The notes under the pieces are model-generated. The model saw nothing but the letters and a program-made list of their open reading frames with translations. It ran no database searches and was not told the DNA's origin. Below, one piece after another: positions 9,603-56,300 of a DNA stretch of 64,000 bases (position 1 is its first letter; each line of letters starts with the position of its first letter). The DNA lies in contig JAXDDX010000046.1 of assembly GCA_034670405.1 (NCBI GenBank), positions 496,001 to 560,000 of the forward strand. Direction: 5' to 3'. The stretch is from Hoplostethus atlanticus. Taxonomy: Eukaryota > Chordata > Actinopteri > Trachichthyiformes > Trachichthyidae. The position numbers were made by a program, and so were the translations under genes.

Positions 9603-9683
9603 ACCAGGATGGCCGAGGGGTTAAGGCGTTGGACTGGATCCAATGGACAGGGGTGCACGTGGGTTTAAACCCCACTCCTGGTA
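9603..9683 (+). pseudogene. tRNA-Leu pseudogene, anticodon loop shortened
   Basis: It is almost the same as the intact tRNA-Leu at 9921, with the acceptor stem, D arm and variable arm recognisable. Between the anticodon-stem halves TTGGA and TCCAA there are only five bases (CTGGA) in place of seven, so no normal anticodon can be presented. The T loop also reads TTTAAAC in place of TTCAAGC. Length is 81 bp against 83. Confidence 0.8.
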
Positions 9684-9920
9684 CAGTCACCTCTGGACCT
9701 CTGTGTGTCTATATGTTGTCCAATAAACATGTTCATGTAAACACACATGCTTTTGAGGAGTCTTCCTGCCCCAGGAAGAACAGCAAGGTGAGCAAAGGTC
9801 TTCCATTAAGCACTTTGGTCTGTTTTAAATATGAAGGGTTTGTTTGTTAGCACTTTGAAATTCTGTTGTGAAAAGTGTTATACCAGTGTATGATAGTGAC
9901 ATGTCAATTTGCTATCTTAC

Positions 9921-10003
9921 ACCAGGATGGCCGAGTGGTTAAGGCGTTGGACTTAAGATCCAATGGACATGTGTCCACGTGGGTTCAAGCCCCACTCCTG
10001 GTA
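9921..10003 (+). tRNA. tRNA-Leu(UAA)
   Basis: Complete 83-bp cytosolic tRNA-Leu gene without an intron. The acceptor stem ACCAGGA pairs with TCCTGGT and the discriminator is A. The D arm carries the A box GGCCGAGTGGTTAAGG. The anticodon stem TTGGA/TCCAA encloses CTTAAGA, giving anticodon TAA at 9954-9956. A long class II variable arm follows, then the T arm GTGGG-TTCAAGC-CCCAC with the B box. It is nearly identical to the human tRNA-Leu-UAA that I recall. The usual Pol III run of four or more T's is missing nearby: the first TTTT on this strand is at about 10320. Confidence 0.9.
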
Positions 10004-11299: not shown

Positions 11300-20476
<9,177 letters not shown>

Positions 20477-28200: not shown

Positions 28201-28844
28201 TTAAATTCTTCAAACTCTGCCCATGGCACCCGAGCTAGAAGAGAAGATGATTGTAACTATGGGCAAAGTGTCAGTCTAGTGTACAGTAGGTGGGTGTAGG
28301 TCTGATCAGTGCCGAGAGCGGACACAGAGTGGGTGGTTCTGGGGTGTCAGAATTTACCGTTGAACCATCTGGAGGTGTCATGGGCATAATTTAAATGAAA
28401 TGTCTGTGATGGAAGGTGTCCACTTGATAAACCCGTGACATACCTTGTCTCACTCACCCCCACTTCCTCTGGGATCCAAGCCAGATTTCTATGTAGGCGC
28501 TCACCCTAGTTTAATTGCAAAAGGGACCGTTACCTCAGATTCTGCTTATTGATAAGCTTTGATTTTGAGTTTTGAATTACCATGATTTTTCTCCTCCTGC
28601 AGCTTGAGAAACAAGTTGGCTCGTCGATGTGTCTTAATACCCTATTGTAAGATTCCTAACTTGCACGTGACTCCTTTACTGAAGCATGGTTGTATTCATT
28701 CATTTTGTGCGTGTCATCAACAGACTGACACAACTGGAGGTGCGTCGACAGATGAGACATAAGGGAGACGGCCCTTGGTTCCATGTGGAGACTCTTGACA
28801 AGAATCTAATTGACAACAGCCACAAGTCAACACCTGACAATTAA
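25195..28844 (+). CDS. ndufb5: NADH:ubiquinone oxidoreductase subunit B5 (complex I SGDH), 6 coding exons
   Basis: Accessory membrane-arm subunit of mitochondrial complex I. Exons: 25195-25312, 25817-25899, 26840-26906, 27050-27111, 27340-27446, 28724-28844. All junctions are GT-AG and in phase, giving 185 aa (human 189). The N terminus [18 protein letters not shown] is a typical presequence, with no acidic residue and several Arg. Conserved blocks are [17 protein letters not shown], one membrane segment [39 protein letters not shown], and the C-terminal [19 protein letters not shown] ending in STPDN. MVSMS was chosen as the start because it matches the human MAAMS-type N terminus. A strong-looking acceptor at about 28602 in the last intron is not needed for the reading frame. 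Confidence 0.95.
25971..26166 (+). mobile_element. tRNA-derived SINE in ndufb5 intron 2
   Basis: The head GGTTGGCCAAGAGGTTGAAG (A-box-like) and the B box GGGTTCAATTCCC (26018-26030) form a tRNA-like promoter. The body AGTGCCCTGTTAAAGTG follows, and the LINE-2-type tail is GTCGCTCTCGATAAGCATAT then CAGCTAAATGCC. This is the most complete SINE in the window, and it is diverged. Confidence 0.7.
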
Positions 28845-29864: not shown

Positions 29865-32800
29865 ATGGCTGCAGACCTAGGAGAGCTGCTGGTCCCATAC
29901 ATGCCCACCATCAGGGTCCCCAGAACAGGAGACAGGGTTTTCAAGAGCGAATGTGCTTTTTCCTACGATTCTCCCGTAAGTGTCCTCTCAGCCCGCCACG
30001 GTACTAATTGTTTAGGAGGGGTGGGGTGGGGATGTGTGTGTCAAGCTGTGTGCTCGTAACACACGTGAGTCGCTGCTCAAGTGCTGTGTGTCTGACGGCT
30101 CCGCGGCCACCTTTCTTCCCTCTTTTAACTTGGAGGAAATAAATAATTAAATGTTGTTTACGTCGCGAGGGGGGACCGGGGGTTTCCTTTGTGGAAGGGC
30201 AGCCGTTCAGTCAGGCCCGCGGTAAAGCGCGTCACCGTGTCTTGCAACTCAATTAAGCCAATAACACCTGCCCGGGCTCTCCTGTTGTTCCACACCATGC
30301 CAGTCCTGTTGTGTTGTGGCTGCAGTGTTTACCCCCTAGCGAGGCATCACTGTAATATTCCTATAATGACTTAAATTGAGTCTGTGGTGCTCAATAGTGA
30401 GTTTATAGTGACTGTATCGTACTTTATGGTGTTTTATTCTCCTATGGTAGCTCTTCAATATCCATATAATAGTCTTATAGTACCTTATAGTACTTTGTTT
30501 TTAAATCTCTTATGGTATTACTATATGATTTGTGTTTGTGTGATTCAGGAGTGGCATAGGATTTTTTTTAGTATATACCTATAGTAGCTACATGATATTT
30601 TAAAGTTTTGATGTGGTGTGTGTGTGTAGTATGCTTTCTAACTAGATTATAGGATTGCTATAGTCCTTGTTGTGACCCACTGTGATCCCATCGTAAACTT
30701 GTCATTTTCTGTCTGTTTCATTTATGAATACGCCCTCAAAGTCCATGTGACATATTTGAATTTTGCTCTTGAATGTCAAATCCCGTACCCTTGATGAGAA
30801 GGAAGGCGTTTTGTGTTGACTGGTGACTGGTGGTCGACTGTTTTCCAGCTTTACATGAGGAATTGTGAATTTCGGCCCTAAATGCTCTCATGCAATAAAA
30901 CCAGAATTTCTCAACTGAAACCAATTTGAAAGGTGACTCAGCTGTCTGGAGTTCATCATGTCGCTCTGAGGACTGGTTTATTTTTATCCCTGCACTGTTG
31001 AAGCTCATATATCACTCTGAGCCACTTAAAGGTTTGTCACAGAGTTTTATAAGGCCTATCCCGATTTTAGTTTGAAGGGCTATTCTCAGGATATTCTGGC
31101 CCTGACAGTCCACATGTAAAGCATTAGGGGATCTTTCTCTCAGAAAAAAAAGGCATGACGAAGTCCCAAGTTATTCTGCAGTTTAAGCACCTAAAGTGTG
31201 AATTTGTAGCCATTTGTCACAGGCTGCTTTCTTTTGAATCCCATACAATGGAACACAATTGTCTAGTTTATGTATCCTTTAATAAGCTTTTTAAGAAAAT
31301 TCAACCTAATGCTCGATGAGGTGACCTGAGGACCACAGGCACCTGCCAGCATTGATTTTATTAGGAACAAGGTTACTGTGTTTTAAACTGGAGCCAAACC
31401 CCTTGTCCTCAGTGACCCAGTGGTAAAGGGGTTCTGCTTTGTCAATGAACTACTTTTTCTATTTAATTGACTGTAACAGGATGGAGAGAACTGTTCCGTT
31501 AAAATCAAATCAAATCAATCAAATTTGATTTGATTTTTATTTGATTTTAACTGTTCCGTTACTTGAAACAAATAGCAAAAGTGACACATGACATTGTCAG
31601 CATGATGTCAGAAGAGAAAAAACACAGACATTTTGTTTTGGAGATATTTCTCTGTGGTGTAAATAATAAGTGAACCTTGGCTATCTGAGTTAGTAGTAGG
31701 CCTTTTCTCAATAAAGGAAAAGTGGGGAAAAGTATTTTGATGTGCAATGGTGCTGCTATGCATTCTGCGCCCTCTGATAAGATACAATACTGTATAATAC
31801 CTACGTTTTTGTACTATAAGCAAAAAAGCCCTATCAATCCAAATTGATTGACAGATTTTGTTATTAACAAATACATATAACTATTGTTTTAAGAGTGCAC
31901 CTGTTGCATCATTGCCACCTCCGTTTCCACTGTGCATGTGGTGTTTCATTTTACCTCGGGCTGGGCAATATGACCAAAATATCAGATCACAATGTCTTTC
32001 TTACTTAACATTGATTGATGATTTTCTTCTCACTAATTATTGCCTTCATTAAAATTATTTACTCTCCATTTCAATTGTAAACTACTTATACACAGCTACA
32101 ATGTAGGAATGTCTATGTATAATAAATTATATATAATCTATTGTGTGTGTGTGTGTGTGTGTGTATGTATATATATATATATATAGAACTGAGATGCCAA
32201 TACCATTGATAAACATATATATAATAATAATTATTTATATATATTTATTTTTGTGTGGATGCATATGATACACTGTAAACAATATAAGTTTGCAACCCAG
32301 CTACTGTAGATGTGTGTTCCTTTTGGGAATTAAGGCTTAATAATGGTAATGATAGAACGTGTTATAACACAGAACTTGTTACTGATGATAAACCATCTGC
32401 ATGATGCGCTTCAATGTGCTGCTGTGTTGAGGCCTTTTAAACTCATCCTGCCTATTCACTGCTGTTTGTTTTTTGCCTGCAGGAGTCTGAGGGAGGTCTG
32501 TATGTGTGTATGAACACATTCTTGGGCTTTGGAAGAGAACATGTGGAGAGACATTACCGCAAAACAGGACAGAGTGTCTACATGCACCTCAAACGACACG
32601 TCAAAGAGGTAAGGCTTTATATGTGGACTGTATTTGATCGGGGTGTTAGCATCTTTTTAACTGGACTACAGTAGTAATAGTAGTAATAGTAGTGGTAGTA
32701 GGAACAGTAGTAGTGGTAGTAATATTTGTGGTAGTATCAGTAGTAATAGTAATGGTGGTAGCAGCAGTAGTGGTAATAGAAGTGGTAATAGTGGTAGTGC

Positions 32801-35800
32801 TAGCAGTAGTAGTAGTAGTAATAGTGGTGATAGTAGTAGTGTTTTTACTAAGTGATGGCGAATGGCAGATGCACCTCTTATGTGTAAATGAAATATATAT
32901 ATATATATATATACGATGTGAAAAGTAATGAAAAACTACGGAGGTGACAAATGTGATACTGATGTTATCATTGATTGACATCACAAATCCGTATTGGTTT
33001 CTTGCCACAACACATTGTCCTACTTATCCATTTCATTCCACATATCAAAGCAAGTCCACCAAACTAAAACATGATGCAGTCATGATACTGTAAGGCAGTA
33101 AAATGTCCACCAAGTGGCCTTGCTGATATCATGATGGTATCATTTTGAACCTGGTTACTGTATCAAATCATATTACGGGACTAAACACATCTCATCGTCA
33201 TCACTGACCGTTACACACAGACTGGCTTTCAGTGAATTTGATGTGATGAAGAGGTGGTCAAACCTGACCTCACTCGACTATCTGACAGATGGAGCTTCTT
33301 TTCAGTGTTTTGGGGCAACGCATGTTTTCTAGTGTGTAATCAAGTAGCATCTAGCTGCGCTGAGTTTACACACTGTTGTTTTTGTAGCTGTATAAAAGGT
33401 ACTACTCAACATCAAACTATAAGTTCTGTCAAATCCTGAAAACAAAACTTAAATGAGTACAGTGGCCGCAGTAAGATGTTAAATAACTATTATCTATATA
33501 ACAACAAGTATAACAATGTTTCTCACACACAACAGAACAATCATGCTTTCTCTATGTGTGCATATCAGTTTCACCGGCGCCCAACAAGCACAAACACTAC
33601 AGGTTGACGGTGAACAACAAAGGCCTTAGCCTAGGCCCTAGCCGTGTTTCCTCGCTGGCTCTAATTGCCCCCAGATAAACTCCCCTCTGTAAAGAGCTGC
33701 TATTTCCATGCCTGGATCTGTCCAGAAACAGCTGCTCGCATTCTGCCAGCTCCTGTGTCTGCTGTTTTTTCCCATGAGTCCACTTGGACGAGAGTGCGTC
33801 AGCATTCTCTCCCTGTCTTCCTGTCTGTCTGCCCACCCCCTCCTCCTCCCAGCCTATTGAACAACTGATGGGCAGTCACCTGAACCTGATAGGATTGGAA
33901 GGAAACCAGTCAGTGGCAGTGGGTTGTTTTGCTGTCGGCCAGTGATTTGGCAAATCCACATTCTGTGGTGGATTGACAAAGTGCTTCATATGTGTTGATT
34001 CATTCAGGACACTACTGATGATCAATCACCTTTTGATAGCAGATTCACGACTGTTTATCTACCAGTCTGTTAAAGATGGATTATTTCCTTTTGCGTTCAT
34101 GAGCCTTTGGACAGTATGCAGTGGAGAGAAATAGCAAAGACAGGAAGCACAGAGGGGATGACACACGATACAGACGAGCCAGTCTGTATTACAGTTACAG
34201 TATGACTGTAATATTCAATTCATATTCAGGATAAAAAGCCTGAATATGCTGGGATATGGTGATATTAAACGATGTATTCTGGCAGGTAAACACCATATTC
34301 TGTGTATTGTTTGGTTTGGTGAACAGCACAAGCGCTGTTTCCATGGAGTCACGAGCATCAAAATAAGACACCACTAACACAGCCTCAACAAAGCTGAGTT
34401 AGAATATCTACATTAGTTAGAATATATACATTTTTTCATCTAATATGAAAAACTGATGACTGATCGTTCCATGTGAACGCCATATCTCAACTGGACCTTA
34501 GCCAGGACGAGGCCAATTCAGAGTGTTATTAGTGTTTGATGCGCTGTCCATCCATCTGCCCCAGTCCACAGATCCACTGTGCACCACAAGCAATTAGTTT
34601 TAGCATCGCCTCTTTACCTTTGACCATGCATTGGTAGGGGGATTTCCCCTTGCTATGTAACCTGACCTGGCAACCAGACCATCTAGCATCTGTTTCTAAC
34701 AAAATGACAACCATCAGCACCTTCTGTCAAAGTAATCATAGAATATTTCAGCATTTTTCAGAGAAAGTTTTGTAAAATTGAAAAGAATAACTGTGAGTGT
34801 TCTTTCATTCATTTTAAACTCTGTTCCTTCCTGTTTCCTACAGAAAGCTACAGGTGCAGCAGGAGGCACCATCCCCAGAAGAAGAAACGGAAAAGTGTTT
34901 CTGGGTAAGTGTGTTTTCCTCCAGCCTGTCAGTTAGAGACAGGACTGGATGCCTCATCGCTAAATCGATCCTCTCTACCATTATTATTCCCAGCAATAAA
35001 TAAATGAAGCCCATTGGTGATGCAGTAATCCATTTCTGTCATATAGTAGGTGAGATGAAATGATTGTTGTGGCGTTAGGCTCAACGTGCATTCACAGTGT
35101 GGTCAGAAACACAAATGTCTCATAGCTGAGAGAATCTCATTCATTTCAGGATAGTGTTATTGTTTTTATTACGCTGCCGTGAGCCGCCAGCTGCCCCTCC
35201 AGCCTGTCTTTACCCAAAGCAACAGAAACTTCCCATGCTGAGGCCCCTCCCCCCTGAGGTCTAAATATAGCCCATTTATTTGTATATGTGGTTGGTAACC
35301 GTTCTAAATCCAAAGTGCCACATGCGCAGCCTGGTGTTCGTTCCCCCCCCCCCCGCCGGCCTCTCAGCTGCCACCGCCCGTCAACCCACCTCCCATCCTG
35401 ACACACTTCCACCATTGGCAGCCATGACACAAGTCTGACCGGGGGGGGGGGGGGGGGGCAGGTGTCTCTCTCCCTCCGTCTCCCCTCCGTCTCACCCTCA
35501 CTTACTGCTGGGCTGGCGGTGGAGGGATTCCTTCCACCCAACCCCTACGTCATTGACGCTCCCATTAGCCCTCTGTACGTTGGGTCAACCCGTTAGTCAC
35601 TCTCTGACTCAGTGGCTCTGATTCGGGTGTGACACAACAGGGCAATCTCTGAACCTTAGGGATCGTCCATATTGGATCTTCCCTCCCCTTCTCTTCATCA
35701 TCTCCTATTTGATGCGTTGATGCGTCTGTATCCATCTCCATACCAGTCCGATGATCTAATCGGCTAGCTAGATGAAGCCAGTGGGCACATTAACAATGCC

Positions 35801-38800
35801 AACAGGGCCAGTGATAACCTATGATCCCGTTTCTCATGAGTCATTACACAACTTTAGGCTAGAGGGATGGGCAACTGTATATGGAGGGTAAATCAAGAGA
35901 AGGCTGTTGGACTGTTCCTCCAATGATCTCAGTTTAATATCATTTTCATGATTGTGTTACATTTTGCGATCCATAATAACCATCACCGGTCATCTCATGT
36001 GACACTGTTATCCAAAGCTTATACAGTAACCGTCCCATACCTGAAAGGACACAGGCTCCCTCCCTGCAACAGCCAGTGTGTCTTGTTGAAGTGTCCTTGA
36101 GCAACACACTAAATCCTCACCTGCTTACTCATTGTAAGTTGCTCTTGATAAGAATGAAAGCTAAATTGGAAATGTAGTTCATGTCTCCCAGTGAGGGCAT
36201 CACCAACGTCTCAAGATGCCACCCTCTCAAAATGCTATAGAGGATGATCTCACTGTTGTTCATCTGTTGATACTCACTGAATCATTAACACTGACACAGC
36301 ATGATGAAGTAAAGTAACAGAAAGTAGCATAAAATAACATGATATTGTTTGTGCCAGGTGATAAGAACTGTTTGGCCCTTCTAGCACAAGAGGAATTGTC
36401 GCTGCAATTTCAGAGACAAGCCTCAACAACACAAGTTTATTTCAGACAAAACATCATAATACATGCTCAAAACAAACCCAAAATACCACGACCAAATGGT
36501 GGCAGCAGCCGATGTGTTCATTTCTTGCCTTAATATTTCATACTACACACTGTACACCTATTGTTCAACAATATTCAGTGCAAGGAATAGTCTAATCCAT
36601 TAGTGCCCATCAATGGTGTTTGTAGCATCAGTCACTGTCTAATGGCAAATGAACGAATGTGTGCTTCCTCCCTTGAAGATTTAGAGCTAAACCGCGATTT
36701 TAACGGAGAGGACTATGAATATGAGGACGAGGCCAAGCTCGTCATATTCCCAGACCACTACGAGATCCCCTTACCAAATATCGAGGAGTTGCCCTGCGCT
36801 GGTCAGTGAGTTGGTGCTGCACGAGGCTCTGTGTGTTTCCATGCATATTCGAGGGAAGGGAAGGTGCACAGGGCTCCGGGGTCGGCCATCTTGAAGAGCT
36901 GCCACCCAGCCTGAAAGTCTGTTTAGGTCCGATTGATTGAGAGTGTCATCATGGCATGCTGTAAACCTTGTTACAGAAAACATTTGCACCCACGAAAAAA
37001 ACACTGGTGCACGTACAGGGGCCCTTATCACCTTTCAGTGCTATATTGCAGTACTTGCATGGAGTTCAGTGTCGCCTCTGTGCCGTGCACGTGGAGGTGG
37101 AGGTGCTTGAGAGAAGACTCTTTTAACTCCTGGCTTTTTTAGTGCAGTGTGTGCTCATGCAGTAGGGATGCTCTTTTCAGCATGCTGTGTCACTCTGGAA
37201 TGGTGTGGCTTTTGTTTGTTGATGGTTTTTTTTGTACTCGTGCATTATTTAATGTTGTGAATGTACAAATTGTGTTGTTGTGCTGCATAATTGATGGTGC
37301 ATAAGCTGGGGAACACCTGGTGTCTGGCTTCCTGGCTGAGACGAGCACTGGAGGGGAGACGCTGGGTTCACTGATTTATTTGTCTAAGTGTTGTGCATGG
37401 TTATTGTGCTTGCTTCTGGCGTTCTGTTGCAAGGTAGATATACTGCTGTTTCATGATATGCCGCCCTCTCCTCTGATTCTGGTTCAGTTTTTGCTTGTGT
37501 TGTGCAGCTTCATATTATCAGTGTCCTGCAAAAACCTCATATACCAGTTTTGCCCTTTTCATTTACTGTTATTGACAGCTGACATTTCCCTTTAGAAATG
37601 TCATTCTCCCACAGCCACGCCATGCTGGTTAATATATTAAGTTGGGGTTTCTTTGAGACACTGATGGTATATTTTCAGCATGACTTCGTCCATACTTCAT
37701 GCATTTGATTCTGTCCCTGCCGTCTCCTCTGATGTCCAGGTGACTATAGCCTGTGATGCAGTGCTCAATGCAGCGTCGGCCTACAAGAAGCAGGAGCCTG
37801 AATCCTGGGAGGAGGAGATCCAGGTGTCCAGACATGCCAGGAGCCTCAGACAGCAGGACAACGGGGTCAGGATCCCACCCAGGTAGGCAACACACACACA
37901 CACACATCACACTGATACAGCACCATAGCGTTTATACAGGCTAGTGTTGGAGGAGTCACAACACGAGGGAAGGTTGTAACATTACACTTGTAGGGAAAAA
38001 TAGTTCCTTAACCGAAGTTAATTAACCAAAAATGGATTAACAGCTTTATGTCTAATATAATTCAGGCTACTATAGGCATGCTAAGGACATTTAGCTACAC
38101 ACACACGTTAGAACATTTCATTTCAAAATCATAAAAGTGTTGCGAAACAGAATAAATTGATTAACTTTCAAATCAATTTGGAGATAAATGTACCATTGAC
38201 TTTTACTTGTAACATTATTAGATGGACCCACACCCACACTGTGAGTAGATATCTCTTTTTCTATCCTGGTTGTTATATATTTAGACATTCTTTTTTGCAC
38301 AGCTAATTCTCCATTGGACCGCCATGACTGCACCCGCCGTGGTTGCTAGGAGATTTATGGTGCAACTGCAAAGCCTCTATTATCTAAATATGTCTCTTTT
38401 CATTTTCTAAGCAGAATCCAATTTCTTTGCGTCGACTTAATGAATTGGATGATAAAAAACCCCACTGAAATAATAACTGTAAGAGCCTCTGTCTCTCTGC
38501 TGTCAGTGGCTGGAAGTGTCAGAAGTGCGAGATGAGAGAGAACCTGTGGCTGAACCTGACAGACGGAGCGGTGCTCTGTGGGAAATGGTTCTTTGATGGC
38601 AGCGGCGGCAACGGCCATGCCCTGGAGCACTACAGAGAGACCAACTTCCCCCTGGCTGCCAAACTGAACACCATCACCCCAGATGGAGCAGGTCTGGGGC
38701 AGATGTCATGTTTCTTACTGGTTCACAAGTGCCGAATCAGAGCTACAGTATTGTGTACCATATGTCAAGATGTTAAGAGTGATATTCTGGACGAGTCTCC

Positions 38801-41800
38801 TTCAGGATGTTGTGAAAATCCACTTTTAGAAAAGGAAGAACACTTTCATTTGTCTGATTTAGATAATCAATCAATCTTTTGCGTCGTTTCAGGTGACATT
38901 TAGAGGAGACATTATACTACACTACAAGTTTTTATGATTTGAAGAAAGTATAAATAGTGATTCCTATGGGTTTTTTATACAATAAAGGTTATGTAGCAGT
39001 AAATTTGACTTTACAGTCAATTAAATGTATGGATGTGCTTATCATGTGGTAGTAGCTAACTGCTCTCTTGGTTTGATGTTCCCTCAGATGTCTATTCATT
39101 TGAGGAGGAAGAGGCTGTGCTGGACCCCCACATATCAGAACACCTATCACACTTTGGAATAGACATGCTACAGATGCAGCAGAGAGTAAGTTGACTTATC
39201 TATGTGGCGTTGATCTGGTTTTGCTATTCCCTTTAACTGAAAATGTGAGCAGCCCTTTGACATGATGTATCTATTTGCAAATGCCAAACTGAAGCCACAA
39301 TTACTGGCATCTTGGTGAGGGGGGTGGTGATGGCTCTTTGTTTTAAAAATTTCACACAGTTATTTGTATCTAGCAAAGTTAAGGCTTCTATGCAGTGTCC
39401 GCAATAAACACCCACCAAGTGCCAAATGCTGGTAAAATTAGTCTTTTGCTGATAAATCAAAAAGCGTCACCCGCCACACTGACTGCTGACGTCTTGAGAC
39501 AGTTACATTTGAATGGCTTGGTTTCATACAGTCTTTGGCTTCGCCTGTTCTCAAACATTGCCACTGCTGACAACCGTGCCTTCACTCTGGCCTGTGAACA
39601 AATCAAATCAATGCAAATCAATGGCTCTGTATCAAACAGGCTGCAGATTGGCTGCCTGTTACACAAAGTGGACCACCTGTAAACTTCTCCTGTTTCTCCG
39701 CTGCCTGGATGGTTAGCTAGCCTAACAATAATTGAAACTTGATGTTATTCCCATGTTGTGAGTCAAACTTTATCCCTTGTTTCAGCAGGACTAAATTAAA
39801 ACTATAAATCTGCAGGATCTGAAATAGCTTTGAAAACGGGAAGGGTGACATATTTCCATGAAAACCGTATATTAACTATTTTGGCCGGTAGGTTAATGGT
39901 GAACACTGCCTCTACGGTAAAGGCTTCACACCCAGCTCTCCTCTCTTCCCCCTTCAGATGGAAAATGGCCACCACACAGACAACAACGCCCGGCCGCGGG
40001 TCAGCGAGTGGGAAGTGATCCAGGAGTCGGGCATGAAGCTGAAGGCGGTGTACGGCTCCGGTTACACGGGCATCAAAAACCTGGGCAACAGCTGCTACCT
40101 GGGCACGGTGATGCAGGTCCTCTTCAGCATCCCAGAGTTCCAGAGGATGTGAGTATGCCGCCATGAGGCTTCACTAGAAGGGAAGCAGGGTATTGAAAAA
40201 AATAGATATTTCTTTACATCTTTGTCTACATATTTCATTTGCAGCACTTGAATGAAATTATTTGGATCAAATTTAAGATCATATCTAACATGCAATTTGA
40301 CTTTTGGGCGAGGGATTCTGCACAGCACCAGAGTGCATTGTGTAGATTGTCACATGCAATGGTTCATGTTCCAATTTCATTTTGTTTTCCATTACTTGTG
40401 CAACCCTGTTCACTTCACATATAAACAGGATCAAGTTATGAAATGTGAAGGTACCCAGGCATGTTCTCAGTGGGTAGAAACCTTTAAAACAAACACTTGA
40501 AAACTGTCAGAGTACTGTGCCTTTGGTAACTACCGGCTGCTCGTAAGGACGGTGATGTAGGAATTCAGGCTTCTTCTTCTATTTCACTTCCACATGTAAC
40601 ATGGTCACCGCTACAGCTGAACATGGTAGCATCTTCTCAGTGCCACCACATGTTTTTCTGTGTGTCTCGTGTTTCGGTGTGGCCTCCCACGTGTCTCTGT
40701 CTGAGGTGAGCGTTTGACATGTGTTTGGATCTCTAGGTATGTGGGCAATCTTCAGAAGATATATGACTATTCACCCCTCGACCCCACCCAGGACTTTGCC
40801 ACACAAATGTGAGTGACTCCAACGTTACATAATGTGACGTCATACTACACAAACATGACAAGGTCTTTTCCGACTGTCACAAAAAAATGACATTGATATA
40901 TTTTGTTAATGACAAATATGGCAGATGTGCATCTTTTTTATTAAGACACTTTTGAAAAGGTCAATACAGCTATACTAATATGATCTTGTCATATAAAAAC
41001 AGGACAAAGTTAGGTCTCTTGAATGACTCTCAGTGAAGAATAAACCAGCTTTTATTGGGTTAAAACTTTTTTCCTCACTCATTTTCTAGTAAATTCCTGG
41101 TATATTTTGTCATGTCAGCCAAAGTGTCGCTAGAAACCAGAAAGCCAGTTCAGGTAACATCTGTCTGCTGCTGTGGCCAAGATGAGAGGTGAGTAGGGTT
41201 TTAGCTGGGCAGGTCATGATGAACATGTTTAGAACCGTCACCATTCTTATTTGAAAGAGCCTGTCAGCACAAATCATGCAGTTGTTTATAAATAATGTTG
41301 ATCTTTGACAAGCATTTCCAATGGGAACATGACTTAATGATATTTGACAAGGTTTTCACCGCAGCTATTTTCACTGGAACGTTTGTTCTAAAGGTCCTTT
41401 CTTTGGGGTTAGGGTGCCTGTTTGGGGTGGGTGGGGTGAGGGATGCAACTGTTGATGTCCAAGAAAAGGGGAAAAGGACCGACACCCCCTTGACCAAAAC
41501 AAAACTTAGATTGACTTTGTGTTCTAATGTTTACTTGTCCCTTGTCCAACAGGGCTAAACTGGGTTATGGACTGCTCTCAGGCCACTACTCCAAACCACC
41601 CATGAAATCTGAGCTCATTGAACAGGTGATGAAAGAAGAATACAAGGTATTAGACTGGGTATGTCCAGCTCCCAATCTGGGTCCATAACCGACGGAAGCA
41701 TGTAAACACTGAGTGGTAGCAGAACCAGTCTTTTTGACTTGATGAACAAACTGTTTGGGGTTGTTAAGAGTTTTAGCCTGCTGGTTTGCAGTTTTCCCCA

Positions 41801-44800
41801 TTTCTAATGCTATTGTTAGTCTTCTCAGGATGACATTCATCTGTGTAATTGTTTCATTTTAGCTTGCACACATCTTCATAGTTGAGAGAAACAACAGAAG
41901 AGGTGATTTTGAGACACAATGTCAAATTTGATTGTGCTCTGACCTTTTTCACTCAGTCTTTAAATAGCTGTTGGCTGCGGTCCCAAGCTTTCTCCTCAGA
42001 TTGCCTTTGAACACAACACTAGCACAGCGCTGATGGTGTGTTGTCCTCTCATGTTCCACATCACTGCTTTATTTTGACACATGAGAAAACCTTTGTTCAA
42101 AATGTACTTGTACTTGATAACTGTATGCCCTGTATTGCTTCCTGTCCTCTCCTCATTTCTGTCATGAACAATTTAATTGATGGATTTGTTTATCACTTGC
42201 TGCACCAATCTGAATGCACATCACGTGAATCATTGCCTTCTCAACCACATAGTGCACAACTGTCAGGAAATGAGAAGAACAAATCCATTAAGGCCTAATG
42301 GGACCCAGCCCTAGGTCTGTAAGCCCCAGGCTTCCTTTAGGCCTTCCCAGCCGTGGTAATTGATAGGGCAGATCTGTGATCCTGCACTTCCTCCATATGT
42401 GAGGGCGGAGTCAGGTTTGGACACATATTGACAGCTGGGTGGAACATTGCATGGCCGGATATAGTGGAGGGGGACTAGAGTCGGCATACTGTGTTCAGTT
42501 TGTACCAAGGCAGCATCATATTTTTCATTTATATCTGTTTTAAGGATCCATAATCTGCCCCCCCCCCCCCCCCCCATCAAGAAATGTTATTTGGTGTCTT
42601 GCTGCTGGTTGGCCTGTGTATTAATATTTCACTGATGTGGAACAAGATGATTTAGTGATGATGTAGCGACTTTAGGATTCATGAGCTTGATGTTTTTTCC
42701 TTAATGAAGATTATAAACATTTTGACATTAACTGTCAAAACTGTTAACTGACATTAACAAGATATCTAGTCGCTGCATGTCTGTTTGTTTATTTTTGCAC
42801 AATGAATTGATCAAGTCAGACGCATTAGTTTAAATTACAATCACATTTTTAGAACACAGAAACTCCTTTTGTAGTCACATGCTGACCATGTAAAGACCCT
42901 CAGGGTAGCTGGAAGATTGCTTGTGTTTTGAGAGGAATCTGTGGAGCATGATGGTGTGTTGTTGTGTTTGCTAATGTTTGACTTCCAGAAACTTTAAGAG
43001 GTGGGTGATGCCTGAAGTGCATCGTGTGATGGGCACTCATAAAAGAGGAATGCTACTTAGGATATTTTTCTATTCCCTTACTTCAACCTCGTATTGCAGT
43101 GTTGTTCACCAAAGCCATAGACCGCTACAGCTGTGGCGACGAGGGTCCCTGCCTCTATGCCTTGTTAGAACCAAGAAGGCTTTGCATCTTTTTAGTGAAA
43201 ACTCCAGTAGCAGGACAGAATATTGCAGCCATATTCACTAGGGATGCACTGATACTTGGTCTGAGTACTAAACTGTAGGTGTCACCTAATGCCAAATTTT
43301 GATCCATTACTTTTACTTGACAGGCTTGGGCCATTATTTTGGGATCACTGGACAAAATGATTGAGATATAATCTCTTTTATCCATTCCAGAGATGTCACA
43401 CTTCTGAAGGGTGTTAGATTTGTTTCAAGTCACTTTTTACACAATTTCTACACTTTGTGTCAGAGAATTCCTCCAGTACTTTATGTCCAATATGAAGAGC
43501 AGAGACCCTGTTTTAGCCTGATATTGACACTTGATACCACTGTCAGTGTATCCCTGATATTCACTGCTCTGCTGCCTTGTCTTATACTTCCCTCCTTAGA
43601 CAGATGAGTGATCGTGCACATTGAGTGTGTGACGCCCAATCTTCTCATTCCAGCACCAGCTGAAGGGCGTCTCTCCCAGGATGTTCAAGGCCCTGGTCTC
43701 CAATGGCCAGCCAGAGTTCTCCTCTAACAGACAGCAAGACGCCCACGAGTTCATCCTGCACATCATCAACCTGGTAGAGGTGAGTGGATCTGGTAAAAAA
43801 TATTCCTCTACGCCATCAAACAGACCTCTTTGTAAGCGAATATGAGGCGATTGAACAAAAATGTAAATCTAAAAATGTTGTACATTTGTACAAGATCACC
43901 ACACATCGCCTGATCCATGTAAGATCAGTCCTACATAACAGCAAAATCAAATTGTAGTCATGAGAAAAAATATTTGGTTTGGTTCAAGTCAAACTTCCTC
44001 TGTTAACTTCCTCTGTTAACTTCCTCTGTTAACGTCCTTTGTTAATGTGCTTTGCATCACTAGTGCACATGATACTCATTCTGTATACATTTGAAGCATT
44101 TTATTTGAGGTAAGCGGCATTTTGAAAAAAAAATGACATTTTCTCTGACTCTTGTTTTTGAAATATTAACTAAATTTTAAGTAGCAGATTTTTTCCAAAA
44201 TAGAAATATAGAGTTTTGGAATGAAACACGTTATGTGTAAATGTGAACATCTGGTTACACCTGAATGAACTTTAACAGGTCAGCTAAAGTGTCGTTCTCT
44301 GGGAGGCATTCAACGTAAACGAATGGTACAGAACAGAAAGAGATGCTGCCTTTCACCGAACTGACTGACCAATAAAATAGTTTAAATAGTTTATCATTTT
44401 AGCCACAAAACAAAATCAAAACTTTGTGTCACATAATGGCGGGGTTATGTCTGACCGCTGACACACACCGGCACCGGGGGGGCCTCAGGCAGCGGGGAGT
44501 GGGGGGGGGGGTGAGTGTTTTCAACGAAAGACAGCACACTGTCCCTCGGCTGGTAGACACACACGGGTGCTCTGAAGTGACTTTCTCAACCGGGTTATAT
44601 ATAGCTCACCCCTATCTGTTACACAGGGAGGCCAGATAATGCTTCCAATTCCGCCTCGGCTACAGGGGGACATGCTCAGACTCGGACCTGGCACTTCCTC
44701 ACTTCACAACCCGCCCAGATTCTCTCCACAGCTGCTCTCTGTTACTTAGAATGAACGTGTGTTTTGAAAGCTCCTCAGCGATCCCACATTGTTTTATTGT

Positions 44801-47800
44801 GTGGGATAATGACACATAATTTAATTAATATTGACTGCTAGACTGAACAGATTAAGGTAAAATCCTGTAGTCCCTGTGCAAAAAAGGCCCTGATTTTTTT
44901 TCTCCCCCTCAGTGTACATGCAGGCGTCTACAGCTGTCTGTGCTCTAGATGCTGAGTTTGTCAGCCAGAGATAGACAGAACCTGACTGAAGCCGCCACCT
45001 TCAGCAACCTTTGCCTTGCGCTAGGCAAGTCGGCTCAAATACTTGCCCAGAGTAAAATTATAACTTGTGTATTTCTATAGCCTCTTAGAATAGATGCGCT
45101 GGGTTGTCTAGATGCCGCCATGCAAGTCGGCGTGTTAAATCAAAGTGCCATCCCTCATCATGGTCTCCAAATAAACACACTCTGGACCTCACTGACCCCT
45201 GCTGTTCACAAGCGGAGAGGGGACATGGAGGCTTTTAAAGTGATAATTGTATATAAATAAATGTCTCTTTTGCTATTGATATTCAGTTTTATTCTTGTCA
45301 TGGTGGAAAACCCGTCTGAAACAACATTTAGAGAACGGGACACTGAAACTCTCCATTAAACCAATGGGACACTTTTAGTTTTAGCAGCTCTTAAAGGCAC
45401 CCTACCTATTCAGTGGTTGGGGAAAGTCTGGGATACTTTCCTCCCTTTAAGTGAAGAATGAATTTACAATGAATACGATTGCTGAAGAAAATAAAACTGA
45501 ATTGCAGATATAGACTGTTTATAGAAGTTGTAGCTGTAGTCTGGGAGGAACCTCCATCATACCAGTGGTGGACCACATGATAGAAGAAGCCAATATCAGT
45601 CTAACCTTATTATTGATATGTACCCACCACATTCCCTTCCCCCCCTGCGTTCCCTGTTTCTTTCCAGAGGAACAGTGCCGGCTCAGAGAACCCCAGCGAC
45701 GTCTTCCGCTTCCTGGTGGAGGAGCGTGTGCAGTGCTGCCAGTCGCGCCAGGTGCGATACGCTCAGCGGGTGGACTACCTCATCCAGCTGCCAGCCCCCA
45801 TTGAGGCCGCCACCAATCGAGGTAAAGGAGCCCCCTCCTACCTGCCACGGTAGGAAGCCACAGCTGCCGTTGGGCCCGGTAACAGATGGCATCAGCTTGG
45901 CTCAGGTGGCATCAAATCCACGAGAATCAGCAGGTCCTCGTCTGAAAGGGCATGGAGGATCCTGCGGTGTTGAATTGATAGATGTGTTTTCGGGGGATTT
46001 GACCGCATATGACTTTTTAATGATGGGCAAATTTTTAGTCGACTCAATGAGATCTACGTTTAGTATTAGTTGAAAAATGGCAGTATTTAAAGGTGCTACA
46101 TGTTTTTAAACATCAATATACCATTGTCAAATATGGTATGATGATGATTACCATGAACAAATAGATATGGATGACTCCCACTCATCCGCCCTCTCCCTCT
46201 GTGGCATTGCTCCATGTATGTTTGTTTTCACTTTACTGAAGAGGAAAAACATGTGGTAAGGGATTTTTCCATAAGCGTTTCACTCGTTCCACCATCTGCC
46301 AGAGACTCTGAAAGCTGTAGCTCTGTTTGTGCTGGAAGAACAGCGCCCTCGTCCTGTTTTGTGCTGTAAAGCAACAATGTAAGATACGGTATAGAGGCCG
46401 GCGGAGGCTGACGATCTTCTCGGTGATGGTCTCGTTTGTTTACAGTAATTATACAAAAACTTAATGTGGTAATGATTTGTTAAATTGGAAATGCTACATG
46501 TAGCGCCTTTTAATTCTGACGTTGCTGGATGTTACAGAGGGTTGAGGATGTTAAAGTGCAGAGCATAAAGTTTGTGTGTGTGTGGGTTTCTGTCTGCATT
46601 CTCACAGAGGAGCTGCTGGCTTATGAAGCCAAGCGAAGGGATGCAGAGGAGAACATGCGGGCCCCTCCGGAGCCGGTGAGGGCCCGGATCCCTTTCACCG
46701 CCTGCCTGCAGGCCTTCACCGAGCCGGAGAACGTCCCTGATTTCTGGAGCTCAGCACTGCAGGCCAAGTCAGCCGGAGTCAAGTAAGCAAGGGCCGGCAA
46801 GGACTGTTCTACTCCTGCATGTCTTCACATCATCTCACAACTTTAAATTCTAAGCAAAGACCTTTTCAAAAGTTTTCAGTGATGTATTCAGCTTTACTCA
46901 CGTGTAATGTTCTCTGTACATACTGTAGACAAGACTCTTGTTTTTCTTTTCTCTCCAGGACGTCCCGTTTTGCCTCCTTCCCAGAGTATCTGATTATGCA
47001 GATCAAGAAATTCACATTTGGGGTTGACTGGGTGCCAAAGAAACTAGGTAACTGACTGGAAAGCTAAAATCCACAAAACACCAATTCATCTGAATCATTG
47101 TGTCATTGTGTCTGTCACTGGACTGTAGTCATTGTAGGGAATGAAGTAAAAGCATGTGGTCACTCAGTATTGTCAGTGCTGTAAATGTCCAGCAGAGGGC
47201 ACCATCACACTGCAGTTCACAAGGCCCACTGTAGCTGAACACACTGCCCCATGTTGATTTTTATCCACCCCAACTATTGTTTCACCTGCGCTTTTTTGAC
47301 ACACCATGCCTCTCACCCCACCTAAAGTGGAGCAGGAGTTTAACTGATAACAAAGGACACAAAAGGTTGAACAGTTACTAGCGACAAATTGCCAATTTTC
47401 TCACCATATGTCATGGATAATTTTTAAAATGTCACTTACGCAGACCAACTCTGCAACCTGAAGGCACACACAACTCCTAATAAGCAGAGCGACGCCATAG
47501 TACTGACCACATTTAACTCTTCTTTACAAGTAGGTGCCTGAATGGGATGATCACTTTGGTAGCAACTCCGTGGGTCTCTCTTCAGTTAAAAAACTAGTCA
47601 AATTCAGAAGGTGGGTGCTTGGCGTCTGGCCTGACAAATTGGGCAAACCCCCAAACCAAGCCCATTTGTGAGCCTAAAGCTGACTTGAAATATGTCCATG
47701 TGTTCCTCCATAGACTTGGCCATAGATGTTCCAGACTTCCTGGATTTGAACAGGCTGCGGGCTACAGGGCTCCAGGTGGGTGAGGAGGAGCTGCCAGACC

Positions 47801-50800
47801 TCTTGCCTCCCATCGTATTACCTGAAGACACCAGAGGTACAGCACAGGTCCACCTACTGCCAAGTATAAAATGGTTCAATCCTAGGACAAACTAGTGGTA
47901 ATAGTACCCGAAGGCGTCTATGTATATGGATATACTCTTAAAACATGATGCGTCATGCTTTATTTTTTGTTGACATGGCGTTTTGTGCAGGGTTGGCATT
48001 TTCCTCCGCTGCTGGCTGCGTGGTGCCAACATTTTCTCCTGCTTCAGGCTGGGTGCTCGGTTGTTTTCTGATCAAAACCGCTCCATCTGTCTCACCCAGA
48101 ACACACTAGAAAGAATCCCCGGTCAGAGGCGCCCATGAATCACCTACAGCGGCCCACAGGGGACAGTGTTTTCATTCCTGCGTGAATCTTTGACAACTCA
48201 ACAGAAACCAAAAGTGTGAAATGCAAAAACGTACTCCTCACAGGTTTCATGAACTTTCAAGGACATTTTTGCCCCAAGCCCCTTTTTGTCCCCGATAACA
48301 ACACATGTTTCTATTAATACGTGGTGCTTTGAAAAGTAACCCAAACGTGTGCTGTTCCAAACTAGCTAACTAACAATCGTTTCAAGAGTGTAGGACGTGT
48401 TTGTGACAAACGATCCATGAAATTCCATCTAATATGAGTTTTCTCTTAAGGGCTTATTGAATGAATCCCCCCAGGAGAGACGAGCTCAATCAATTACTGG
48501 AAACTTGTTGTGCTGCTGTCTGGCTGAGATTAATAACTTTGAGTCATTAAATGAGATCCCCATGTAATAACACACAGCCCTAGGCGTTGGGAATAACCCA
48601 TTGATTGTACCACCATCCACTACCAAGTGGAATACAAACAGTATTGATGTTACCCTCCGAGGTGTGGCTGCGTATTTTTGTTTGTCTCTTTCCTGCCACC
48701 AAGAGTAGGACTAGTCTCAGCCCTGCCTCTTTGTCTTTCTTGTTTCTCTCTCCTGTCTGTGATCGTAACTCCTACTCCTCCGACTCTCCTCTGTTGCCTC
48801 AGTTCAGCTACATCACATTATCAGTCGTCTCCTTAATATTTTAGCAGGTGCAAAGCACAAAGTGTTCTGTACCGTCTGAAAACCCCGAACATAAAAAAAT
48901 AAATAAAAAAGGGCACCGAGGAGGAGTGCAAAGACACCGCGGCATCTGCAAGCAGTAGAGACACAATGGGTCCTTTCCCAGTATAGCTCAGCCGCCTCTC
49001 AGGACAGGAAACTACTTGAAGTCAGAGTGAAAAAAATGGAAGTTTGAAGATGTTTTTCTGTGTACTCCTAAATATTGTAGCGCCGTACACTGTGTGCTAT
49101 ATCTGCTGTCTCAGACCCCCAAACACACTAAATTAGCTCCGGGGAAAAGTGCAATGTCACTGCTTAAGTGTACTTAGGACTCAGTGCTGCGCCTCACACA
49201 TTAAGAGAGCCCTTTGAGCTGCGACAACCAACAAGACAGCAGAGCGCATCTTCCTCTGTCAGCACAAAACTATTTCAGAGAACTATGTGAATGGATGTGT
49301 GAAAAGATGTGAAGATTTGTGTAGATTTTGTTTTGTGGTGTGTAAATCACGGAGGAGGTGGGACACTCTTCTCTATTGCAGCTCCACTAGCTTTGAACAT
49401 TGAAATGAAAGCGGGTGAGAAAACAGAGAGTATTGTTGTTTTCAATACATTTGCTGATTTATTTATTTCATTTGTATGATGAACTTTGTCAAATTAACGC
49501 CTGTCCCCTGGCCGGTCTCAGCAGTGATTCATCACGCCTTGGTCACGACAAGGCTTCAGTGCTTCCCATTATTTACAGAGCACCGCACAAATGTGTTTTC
49601 CTTTTACGCACGAGTTTGCTGCTCAGAGCGATGGCTTTCATTACTTGGGAGGGAACAAACGTAGTGTGATTGAAACTTGGTGTTGCTGACCTACATTTTG
49701 GAGGATTCTGTCTAGGTTAATATGCTTTTTGTACACATTTCGTTTCACCTTTTCAAAAATGAAAGTATTGCAAAGCACATAAACAACTTATGGTTGTCAA
49801 CTGATCTCATAATAATCACTTACTTTACTTTATGCTCCTCTTCCAGATAACTCCATGAGCTCCATAGACTGTGAGTATAAGTTTTCTCACTTTTCCTATA
49901 CTGTACATAACCCATTTATATAAATTAAAACCATGGAAAAATCTTTTTTTGGGCACCAAGCAGTAGAGACAAACTCTGTGGAGCTAAAGGTCTGACCATG
50001 TTACGTCAGCAGGTGCTGCAGCTGCTCTCACAGCGACTTCCCAAACAAACTTTATTTTCCAGTGTTCTGCTTGTTTTAGCCAGGCTCATTTCTCTCCTTG
50101 ATAAATCATCCCTCAATAAAGAAACCTCCCCAAGGCAGAGTCTTCTCTGGTCCCTTTATTTAACGAGGCCCAAAGAGAGAGCCGCTGCACATCTGATTGG
50201 CTGTTTAAACTGGTGGGTTACCGGCAACGTTGAATCAGCAACTGTATGTTTTAGTTATTGATGTTGGTTTGTCGTGTCCCCAGCTCCAGAAATAGATGAG
50301 GTGGCAGTAATGCAGCTAGCAGAGATGGGCTTCCCGCTGGAGGCCTGTCGGAAGGCGGTCTACTACACAGGCAACATGGGCCCTGAGATGGCCTTCAACT
50401 GGATCATAGCCCACATGGAGGAGCCCGGTAAGGCAGCCTCACTGCATGCATGAGAGCACATGGACAGATAAATGGACTGATAGACACACACATGAACATA
50501 TTTTACATTTTAGGCATTTACTTGACGTTCTCATCTACTTACTATAACTGAGCAAGTAGGGGTGCAGATATCCGTATGTTTACAACAAAGTTGAACATGC
50601 CCAAAATAGAGACACAGTCAATGCAACACGCCGCTGCATACGCATTTGTGTGTACTCACTGCAGCTCTGTATTTTTTCTTTATTTACAAGATACCAGAAA
50701 TAGAGGTAGACAAAAACTACAACAACAACATCAATGGCTGCAGTGAAAAAGTGACAGACGGCCCTCAGATTGCTTTTCCACAAGGACAACCGATTTTGTC

Positions 50801-53331
50801 CACAGAAATCTGACGAAATTCAATTTGTTTTCGCAGCATACTATACTGCCCCCTTTACTCAAGGACACTTTAACAGGACACATGACTGTCTCTAACCACC
50901 ACACACACACACACACACCATATATCTGATTATATAAGCATATAAGTTGTTTGATTACGTGCGTTTACCACACGACAGCATGGGACTGTGTACCGGCTGT
51001 TTTAGTTCGTGTGTTTGAGATTGCATGTATGCAAGTCCATATTTACATGTCTTTGTGTAAGCTTTCAATATTTGTCTGTTTATGTTATGTTATGTTATGT
51101 TATGTTATGTTATGTTATGTTATGTTATGTCTGTGTGTATGACTGGAACAACTTGTGTGTCAGAGCTGACTTCATTTCTCATAGTAGAGCCTCGGCAGCA
51201 GAGATGTTCCCCTGAGGCGGAGTGTGAGTCAGTTAGTCTCCTGGTTAGCTTCTAAAGGTTCCCGTAGCAGAGGGAAATCAGAGCAGCCTCCCTTCCTGCA
51301 AAATGGGCTGTGTTCAGGCTCGATGACATCAGAAAAACAAGCTGAACTTTTATTGTGAAAAGGTCACGCCCCCTTCCACCACCTCCACGCTTCCATTTGG
51401 TCCCATCACTTTCACATGACTAGTATCAGTTCCTGAATATGGCCCATTGTAATACATTTTTAGACCTAAATGTTTCAACAAAATCATTTTTAGAGCTTTT
51501 AAGAGATGCTGCATTTGCAAAGCTGAACTTAGTTCCTGAACTGTAATAACTGCATTTCCGAAGCAGCGCTGTGGAGCCCATTGCTGCTGGATTATACCTT
51601 TTACCGAGCTGTCATTGGGGCATGTTACGCCTGCTACACAAACATCTCTCCGTGTGGCGTAAAAAACAACAGTATTATGTGCAATCAAAAGGACAAAGGA
51701 CTAGGAGTCTGAGATGGAGACGATACTGAGAGATAAGTGGTACCCATTTTCATTTATGCCAGAGGATCGTAATGAAGGTTGTGTTCATGGCCAACAGCAG
51801 AGTGATTACCGTAGCGGTGCCCTTGTACCTGAGTTGGGCTCAATTCACTTAAAAATAATACAACATTTACTTGGAAATTAGAGATCTTCATTCTCAGTAT
51901 TTTTTTATGCACTGTCTATAAGAACCTTTTCATAGCAAATGTTTTCAAATGTTCAAATGTTGAATATAATTTACTTCCTGAATTGATTGAATGGAAGGTC
52001 AATCAAACCCCTCCTGGCTCTGGTCCTTCTGTATGTGTTGTTGCGGAGTACTTGAAAACAACCGGCTTCTCAACTCCAACGATTCAGATTTCCCCCATAA
52101 TATTCAATAACCAACTGTTTCCAAAGTGAGCCCTCCACCATCTCTCCTCCATCCTTACTCCTACCCTTACCAATATTGAAATGCAGGCTTTTGGAATAAA
52201 ACTCTCAGTTTGTTTCAAAATACATTCAGCACCTTTCCTCTGTACAATCTACCTTAAAAGCCTGAAATATTTGGTACTTTCTTTTTTTTTTAATTACTTT
52301 GCCTGAACCTTTATTTAGCTAGGGACCTGGTGTGCTGAACCCGCTCCTTGTCAGCACTGTCCCGCTTCACCTTCCTACATTTCCTACATTCATTCTCAGA
52401 AGCGATCCATTTAAGGACTGTCTGGAGAAATAAGGGATTTGCTCACAGGTTCCCCGGCTGTAGATCTAGTTGTTGAGTGTTGGCTTTCCTTGCACAGGTT
52501 TTATATCTGGTTTGTCTTTTGAATTTCTGCAAATTGCTGTGATACTTTCCTCAGAACTATTATTAGTATAACTTTGATTTCTGGACCACGTAGTTTTTAA
52601 AGTCGTTCAGGGGAGTCGGACCCTTAATGATAAAAAACAACTCTGCCCTCATCATGAAGGCAATAATCATCACTGTCTGAAATGGTTTTCCTCCCACTGT
52701 TGGGAGGTCAGGACTCGGCAGGGTGGAACACTGAATGCCTCCCACCCTCTGGAGCTTTGCACCGACTCTTAAAGGACTGGATTATTGCCCAAATATCTAC
52801 ATCATTCTCACTTGTCCGTTAAGAAAAATGCTTTTAAAAAGGGCTTCAGGTAATTTATGACTTCATCAACCTCTATAAATTCTAACAGCATCGACAGGTC
52901 TCTGGCACAACCCCCACCCCCCTCACACCTCATGTCCCCTTGAATTACAGTGGCCTTAACTTGACACAAACAATAAAGTCACATTTTCACAATAGAGACA
53001 GGTAAGCCAGCCAGTTAGAGCAGAGATCCAAAATAAATGTATTAGATGGAAATCCCAGCACCTGCTCAAGTAATTGTTCAATCCCCTATCAACCCCCCAG
53101 ATTATTGCCATTTTGTGCTGTCGGGGAGTAACAATTTGACTTATTGCCCCTATAACATGTAACACCTGACATAGCAGTGTGAGTCACATGCCAGTGATTG
53201 CTCCTCAGCTGTAAGAGGCCATTTTCTTATCAGTACATTCAAGCATTGATATGTAAAGGCTTATCTAGGAGAAGTAATACAATAGCTTTGTTGTTTTGTA
53301 TTATACTGTAATGTAGGCAGGTATGAGTCAA

Positions 53332-53380
<49 letters not shown>

Positions 53381-56300
53381 CTAAATGGATGTATCTCTGC
53401 AGATGCCCACACTACTAATTACTGGTCTCCTGTTGTGAATAGTCAGTGGATAAAGAGACAGCAACATGCCTGAGGGCGCCTTTACATGAGATGCTGTTTT
53501 CCTCTAAACAGTGCTAGAAAAGCATCCAGGGTGTTTCCCTGCTTGCACATGTATGTGATGGTATGTTTGTCACTTGTATGTAATTTATTAACACGTTTCA
53601 ATTGTAGTTGCTAAATAACATTCCAGTATCCCAAGTCAAAAACTCTCTATTCTCAAGTTTTTTGTAGTCCAAGCTCTTAAAATGACTGATAACTTAATAG
53701 TAACCTATGATGTGTTTTACTTTCATGCCACCTTTCAGTTTGAGTAGCTGCCAGTTTTTTCACATAGTGGATTTCTTGTTTCGGTATGAAACTCTTCAAA
53801 TGTAATCTGCTAGTTGTCAGATTAATAATTACAGATTAGTTTGCTTCTGTGTCAAAATGTTTTGATGCATGGAGGCATTTGACAGCTGAATTGTCACAAA
53901 TCACACCATAGACGTACAGCAGTCAGAGGATGTGGGGCTGTATATTATGGCTATCATGCTGACTCACTTCCAAAACAAAATGATAGAGAGCTATATTATT
54001 ATTTCCTCTCTCTTCCCTCCCTCTCTCCTTCCTCATCTCTCTTTCTCTCCTCTCAGACTTTGCAGAACCTCTTACCCTGCCCTCCATTATTGATCCTGGT
54101 CCGTCCTCCAGTGACAGCCCCACGGGCACCGCCCCGCTGGCCAACTCACCCCCCGAGGAGAGCATCGCCATCCTCACTTCCATGGGTTTCCCCCGCAGTC
54201 ACACCATCCAGGCCCTCAAAGCCACGGTCAGCATTTTGCCTCCTCCCTGTTATGTTTCGTCTCTACCTGCTGATAAATGTGTTTTATTCCATTAGCTGGC
54301 ACTAAGGTGAAAACTCCCAGAAAAGTGACTTTCATTCTGTCTACTGATAATTCGTTTCTATTTGTTGATAAATAGTTAAAGTTAAAACAATCTGCTGTTC
54401 TGAACACCCGGGTTTTGGGTATGTCTTTTCTGGGAAAAATACTCTGCCGCACAGGATGTGATGCATTTTATGTGGGTAGTTAGCATGAGCAGCGATAGCC
54501 ACCATGGCTGAACAGACAAAGAAAAGAGCGCCACCTACAGAAACTCAAACTTCATCAACAGGAAATCCAAAGAAAAAGACGTCACAGTGCTGGACACACT
54601 GTTTAATTGACAGGTGATCTCTGGGAAGTGCAGTGCAGAAACACCACAGCGATGAGCGCTGAGCACCAAAGATGTGGGCCAAATAGAAAAAGAGAATCTC
54701 ACAGATTACCACTTTATTCAATTGCACAGATAATTTGCTAAATCACAGAAGGAAGATAAATTGTTTAAGGTGAGACAAGAGCCATATAAAAACATTGCAC
54801 CTCAAAAGGAAGAAAAAGAACACAACTGTAAAACATGAAACCTATCCTTACAGTCTTCTACTAAATCTATCATTCTCATGAGACCTACTATTTATATTGT
54901 TGACAGTTCATGACGAGGCATGATGCAGGTATGACATGAGATGGCGCTCTAAGGGCAGAGCGAGGGTGACATGATGAACACCAAGCTCTGCCAGTCATAA
55001 ATGGGCTTGGCTGGCCCACTTGTTGGCTGTCTATACTTTAACTTTAATCGGTCCTCCATGTCCTCAGCGATCAGCCATGTCTGCTCTACATGCTGTTTAC
55101 AAATAGTCCCGGCATACAGAGGCCATTGCTGATGCTGCTTTTCAGGTCTAGCAATACGATCTGGGTGGGTTACATGTCAGGCTATTTCATCACATCCTCA
55201 ATCAACACATTTGGAAACGGATATAAAATGTACCATAGTATGAATTATTTATCCACGGTGTATCAAACTGAATGCAGTTGCAGCAAATCCACAGGCTACG
55301 CGTTTTGAAATGGCCCCTTGTTTCAACCTGCCCCATCGGCACAAATAGGCCAGCAGTCCGTCAGTTCTTTACTGAAATAGACATCAGGCTTCCTTGTTTA
55401 TCCTCCAAACTCCCCGCCATACACGATGTTCATAGAGGGGGAAAAAAAGAAACACATATTCCTCATGAGGGGACGGGAGGTGTGAAGCAGCGAGGGTCTA
55501 TTAATAGCCCCGAGTCAGGAGGAGGAAGTGTTCAACCTCAGCGGCCTGATGGGCAGAGACAGGAGAAGCTGGCAGCGTCACTAGCCACCCCAACTCCCTT
55601 CACCTCCCCCTGTGCTCCTCGACAGACATTCTCCATGAATCACACCTCTATTTTGAATTAAATCAAAGAGCTGGGTGGGGAATTTTACCCCCCCCCCCCC
55701 TTTCCATTTTCTTTTTTATCTAAAGATACAACAGAGAGAGGCGAAACAAACTAGAAAAATGAAATGAAAACCTCGTCCCGACTTTTACCCACACATTACC
55801 AAAGTAAAATCAATTGAAGCTTTTTATTTTTCAATGACTAAACCTTTCTGATCATTGACATATACCTAAAATCTGCAAATTAAATTTAAAATTGTCATCC
55901 ATTCTGTAATTTGTCATTTGTTGAATGGGTTGTGTTTTTGAAGTTAACTTTGAAATGATGTTGCCAACGTTTGCGGTGCCTTCCGCTCCTCTTTCAGAAC
56001 AACAACCTTGAACGAGCGCTGGACTGGATCTTCACCCACCCGGAGGAAGAGGAGAGCGACGCCCTCTCAGACATGGCCGACACAGAGCCCAACAACAACA
56101 CTTTCTCCAACGCCAACTCACACAGCGACTCTACGCTGTCCCCAGACCGGGACACGCTGGGCCCGCGGATCAAAGACGGACCGGGACGTGAGTGGCTCTG
56201 CATGGCTCTGATTGTACTGATTGCAGCTGCTCTGTCTGTCTGTACTTTATTTATTTATTATTAACCTTTACCTCACCTTTAAAGGTGCTTTAAGTAGTCC

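Follow-up and report, generated by a model that had tools for sequence, protein, structure and literature searches.

The window, a stretch of 64 kb, carries the usp13 coding region on the forward strand (29865..58043), in which we located 20 coding exons between the start codon at 29865 and the end of the stop codon at 58043 by tblastn, junction search, spliced translation and the stop codon itself. The query, both for tblastn and for ranking junctions by likeness, was the human USP13 protein, and the best tblastn segments of the exons show 50 to 86% identity to it, in a comparison made with USP13 alone. Three genes lie upstream: actl6a (BAF53A; about 12150-20473, forward strand), with 13 exons located and 12 of 12 junctions between them in frame; mrpl47 (about 24612-21915, reverse strand), with six exons located and all five junctions between them in frame, although the last scores low; and ndufb5 (about 25834-28841, forward strand), with five exons located and four in-frame junctions. 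These are also what we take to be the neighbours of human USP13. Ten long open frames elsewhere gave a single weak Pfam match, to actin (E 0.021, below the cut-off), which pointed to actl6a. In addition, ARAGORN places a tRNA-Pro(TGG) at 9603-9684 and a tRNA-Leu(TAA) at 9921-10003, of which only the latter reaches the Rfam tRNA cut-off.

Pfam domains were searched in one version of the spliced usp13 protein only, that in which exon 4 ends at 36805 and exon 5 starts at 37679. Here PF17807, PF02148 and PF00443 score above the cut-off, as do PF00627 and PF22562 with two stretches each. The UCH, UBA, zf-UBP_var and zf-UBP domains are all recovered above cut-off in the arrangement of USP5/USP13 deubiquitinases: a variant UBP zinc finger, a UBP zinc finger, and two UBA domains inside the UCH catalytic domain. 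As far as tested by junctions, domains and reading frame, the window holds an ordinary, otherwise intact fish usp13. A search with exon 8 found no relatives among viral contigs, and a scan of genome contigs gave matches of 27 to 29 residues in two bacterial bins (L001 and L002) and no fish relative. The publications retrieved on usp13 in teleosts, judged by title or the start of the abstract, include none on this exon.

Of the 19 usp13 junctions, 18 are in-frame GT-AG joins that follow the human protein, the exception being exon 4/5. Seventeen came straight from the junction script. At exon 18/19 the script anchors did not extend far enough; this junction was placed manually, and the frame continues through it to the C-terminus. 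The neighbouring genes contribute another 21 in-frame joins (12 in actl6a, four in ndufb5, five in mrpl47), and their spliced pieces are open. The window thus shows one frame fault among 40 located junctions and some 4.9 kb of coding sequence, counts that leave out the actl6a start and the first coding exon of both ndufb5 and mrpl47. Since the scripts keep only in-frame, stop-free joins, ranked by likeness to the human protein, a broken junction is not something they could report alone. What sets junction 4/5 apart is that none of its GT-AG joins preserves EELP-xx-VTIACD.

Exon 4 (36679..36801, forward strand) was delimited by junction search, splice scores and spliced translation. It measures 123 bases where 122 are expected for the family frame, and ends in TTGCCCTGCGCTG (also given as GAGGAGTTGCCCTGCGCTG), followed by a GTCAGT donor. 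Exon 5 (37740..37882, forward strand; junction search and splice scores) opens with GTGACTATAGCC at 37740, behind a family AG that ends at 37739, with an acceptor score of 4.92 and a branch-point-like A at 37708. Joined at these usual sites, the two exons hold one base too many for EELPAL/VTIACD, which, going by human USP13, is the family reading at the junction. The 36801/37740 join instead translates as ...EELPCAGDYSL and runs into a stop, the sixth codon if the split codon is taken as the first. These letters and the broken join, as described in the original prediction, are confirmed by the sequence and the spliced translation; the stop that it placed "at once" does follow, only slightly later, and its exon 4 end at 36800 and CCC at 36791-36793 both lie one base further on, at 36801 and 36792-36794.

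Single-base removal narrows the surplus base to the CCCT at 36792..36795 on the forward strand. Whether a C of the 36792-36794 run or T 36795 is dropped, the protein becomes EELPALVTIACD, with nothing else altered. Every other position among the 24 bases at the exon 4 end (36778-36801) fits EELPAL worse and was rejected as the site. The surplus base may be a C or a T, as both fit; its earlier naming as a C is too narrow.

Splice sites were scored with matrices typed from general knowledge (nine bases for the donor), which are rough. The usual donor, CTG/GTCAGT (36802..36807, forward strand), has a matrix score of 2.60 and a U1 duplex energy of -4.5. Four bases on, an alternative donor, TCA/GTGAGT (36806..36811, forward strand), has a lower matrix score of 1.34, because TCA before GT is poor, and a U1 duplex energy of -5.2 that slightly favors it. 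It had been called the better donor, a description that is not supported: the matrix reverses it, and U1 pairing bears it out only slightly. Both donors lie in GTCAGTGAGT and form an overlapping GYNNGY tandem. On the acceptor side, the AG at 37677-37678 (exon start 37679) scores 0.53 against 4.92 for the usual site. The search for branch-point-like motifs covered the 60 bases ahead of each AG. Those without an intervening AG lie 31, 40 and 7 bases upstream of the usual acceptor, whereas the 37679 acceptor has a sole such motif, 14 bases before its AG. The usual donor and acceptor are the best-scoring pair (2.60 and 4.92, versus 1.34 and 0.53). Elsewhere in the gene, the exon 15 donor, CAA/GTATAA at 47864-47869, is very weak (matrix -3.11, U1 duplex -1.6), weaker than both GT donors of exon 4.

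Two GT-AG pairs keep the frame open. Donor 36805 joined to exon start 37679 is open and in frame and adds the 61 bases of 37679..37739 (forward strand) from the acceptor side, for a net gain of 22 residues, 24 replacing 2. About 22 residues had been predicted, together with the claim that this pair alone stays open; that claim is true of the four donor and acceptor combinations then considered, and a fifth pair is also in frame. In the latter, the usual donor (36801) is joined to exon start 37750, behind the AG of TATAG (37748..37749, forward strand; junction search and splice scores), giving EELPCA/ACDAVL with a net loss of three residues. This acceptor is poor (-3.49) and lies 10 bases behind a strong one. 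With thresholds of zero for both sites, 36805/37679 was the only pair found for exon 4/5. Pairing a GC donor at 36797 with exon start 37740 also leaves the frame open and gave the best protein match in the junction search; it was rejected on its donor score of -12.75. No frame-restoring cassette exon was found in intron 4 among candidates of 18 to 249 bases and length 3n+2 that keep the usual donor and acceptor and have sites at least as good as those of 36805/37679.

Control introns were searched for rescue pairs at the 36805/37679 thresholds. A first control, confined to usp13 and allowing acceptors anywhere in the intron, gave a +1 rescue pair in 4 of 18 other introns. A wider control, which differs in range and in the introns listed and covers the introns of all four genes with acceptors within 70 bases, gave a nearby +1 rescue in 5 of 39 other introns and a +2 rescue in 3 of 39. 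In all five introns with a +1 rescue, the best pair beats 36805/37679 in both donor and acceptor. Among 63-base stretches of usp13 introns, the open fraction is 0.33. An open rescue pair at exon 4/5 does not exceed chance and could easily arise that way.

The content of the added stretch was compared with coding and intron sequence by codon score. Under a table built from actl6a, ndufb5 and mrpl47 (767 codons), its 21 codons have a mean score of -0.156; only 0.5% of 817 usp13 coding windows (mean 0.42) are at or below this value, while 40.5% of 7477 open intron windows are at or above it, and with only 21 codons both comparisons are weak tests. With a same-gene table, 0 of 439 coding windows fall as low as the added stretch, and 33% of open intron windows match or exceed it. 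Within the limits of this weak test, the added stretch looks like intron and not like coding sequence.

We consider it probable that the surplus base in CCCT (36792-36795) is an erroneous one-base insertion in the consensus; the likelihoods attached to this and the other explanations are judgements. The consensus error fits best because the usual sites are intact and outscore the others as a pair, the rest of the gene is intact as far as tested, and removal of a single base, among the 24 positions tried, returns this junction to the family protein. The surplus base would then be absent from the animal's DNA, exon 4 would measure 122 bases and keep its usual splice to exon 5 (36801/37740), and the protein would read EELPAL/VTIACD. 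Two observations argue against an error: CCC is a short run and no classic homopolymer error site, and the fault is alone in about 4.9 kb, with nothing else in the window to suggest poor assembly.

A real base in a broken copy of usp13 is an unlikely alternative, whether as a loss-of-function allele of the sequenced animal or as a duplicated copy starting to decay. Most transcripts would then stop early and be degraded, in keeping with the best-scoring site pair, which would yield ...LPCAGDYSL and a stop. However, the remaining gene is intact as far as junctions, domains and reading frame were tested, and loss-of-function variants are rare per gene. In the portions of the literature retrieved on USP13 knockout viability, an intestine-specific knockout was the only one described.

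Compensation by splicing, in which the base is real and the transcript is joined from 36805 to 37679 (net gain of 22 residues) or from 36801 to 37750 (net loss of three), is very unlikely. It draws on the fact that both joins are open and in frame, on the slightly better U1 pairing of the alternative donor, and on the position of the junction in the linker between zf-UBP_var and zf-UBP (variant zinc finger at residues 16-79 and UBP zinc finger at 214-286 of the protein with the 36805/37679 junction). Between the aligned LP and VT (159 and 166 in PDB 3ihp), this linker has six residues in USP5 of that entry versus two in human USP13, an alignment whose upstream match is weak (E 0.92). Linker length may accordingly vary in the family, and a change in length might be borne; a tolerated change would make a splice rescue possible and is no evidence that one occurs. 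Against compensation stand the weak sites (donor 1.34 and acceptor 0.53; -3.49 for TATAG), the likeness of the added stretch to intron in codon score, the intact family acceptor, and the 5 of 39 control introns that offer a nearby +1 rescue anyway. Of the two readings given in the original prediction, the evidence favors a sequencing or assembly error, and shifted splice sites with a lineage-specific insert have little in their favor on these same four counts.

Highly improbable, too, is a real insertion that has become fixed in this fish's usp13 and is mended by the 36805/37679 splice, by the TATAG acceptor or by a +1 slip of the ribosome, with the linker changed or unchanged. This reading is narrower than compensation by splicing and slippage taken together, because it requires fixation in the species. 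Slippage itself, with ribosomes moving +1 at CCC-U and reading CCCU as one proline codon, would skip one base, give the family protein at the junction and leave EELPALVTIACD unchanged; its probability is close to negligible, as any C inserted into a CCT codon creates CCC-U, which is no independent sign of slippage, and the codon that follows, TGC, is not a stop and is not known to be rare. In its favor, CCC-U is known to be prone to +1 slips, most of all with tRNA-Pro lacking m1G37, as described in PMC7577736, although the structures in the passages concerned are of 70S (bacterial) ribosomes.

The consensus error in CCCT remains our preferred reading, and the case is mostly a warning. When an intact gene has a single broken junction and an open cryptic splice close by, this is easily mistaken for splice evolution, yet 5 of the 39 introns tested (about one in eight) offer such a rescue. 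If base and rescue were both true, usp13 would be a clean vertebrate example of a frameshift mended by splicing.

Short indels with frameshifts are the commonest error in CLR assemblies of vertebrates, according to PMC8081667. The usp13 break appears comparable to the one-base errors that this paper describes in the consensus of vertebrate genomes assembled from long reads, in that a lone one-base indel breaks a conserved, otherwise intact gene, and differs in that the indel lies at a run of only three Cs. In favor of compensation by splicing, PMC8893660 reports frame-restoring isoforms at 39 of 73 indel-bearing loci in rice. As at those loci with non-3n indels, a putative in-frame alternative pair adjoins the indel in usp13, but this pair falls within the range of the control introns. 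Against compensation, PMC4267661 terms alternative splicing at GYNNGY donors primarily noise. The exon 4 donors of usp13, four bases apart, resemble these tandems, with the difference that in usp13 the 4-base shift alone leaves the frame broken and a second acceptor is needed.
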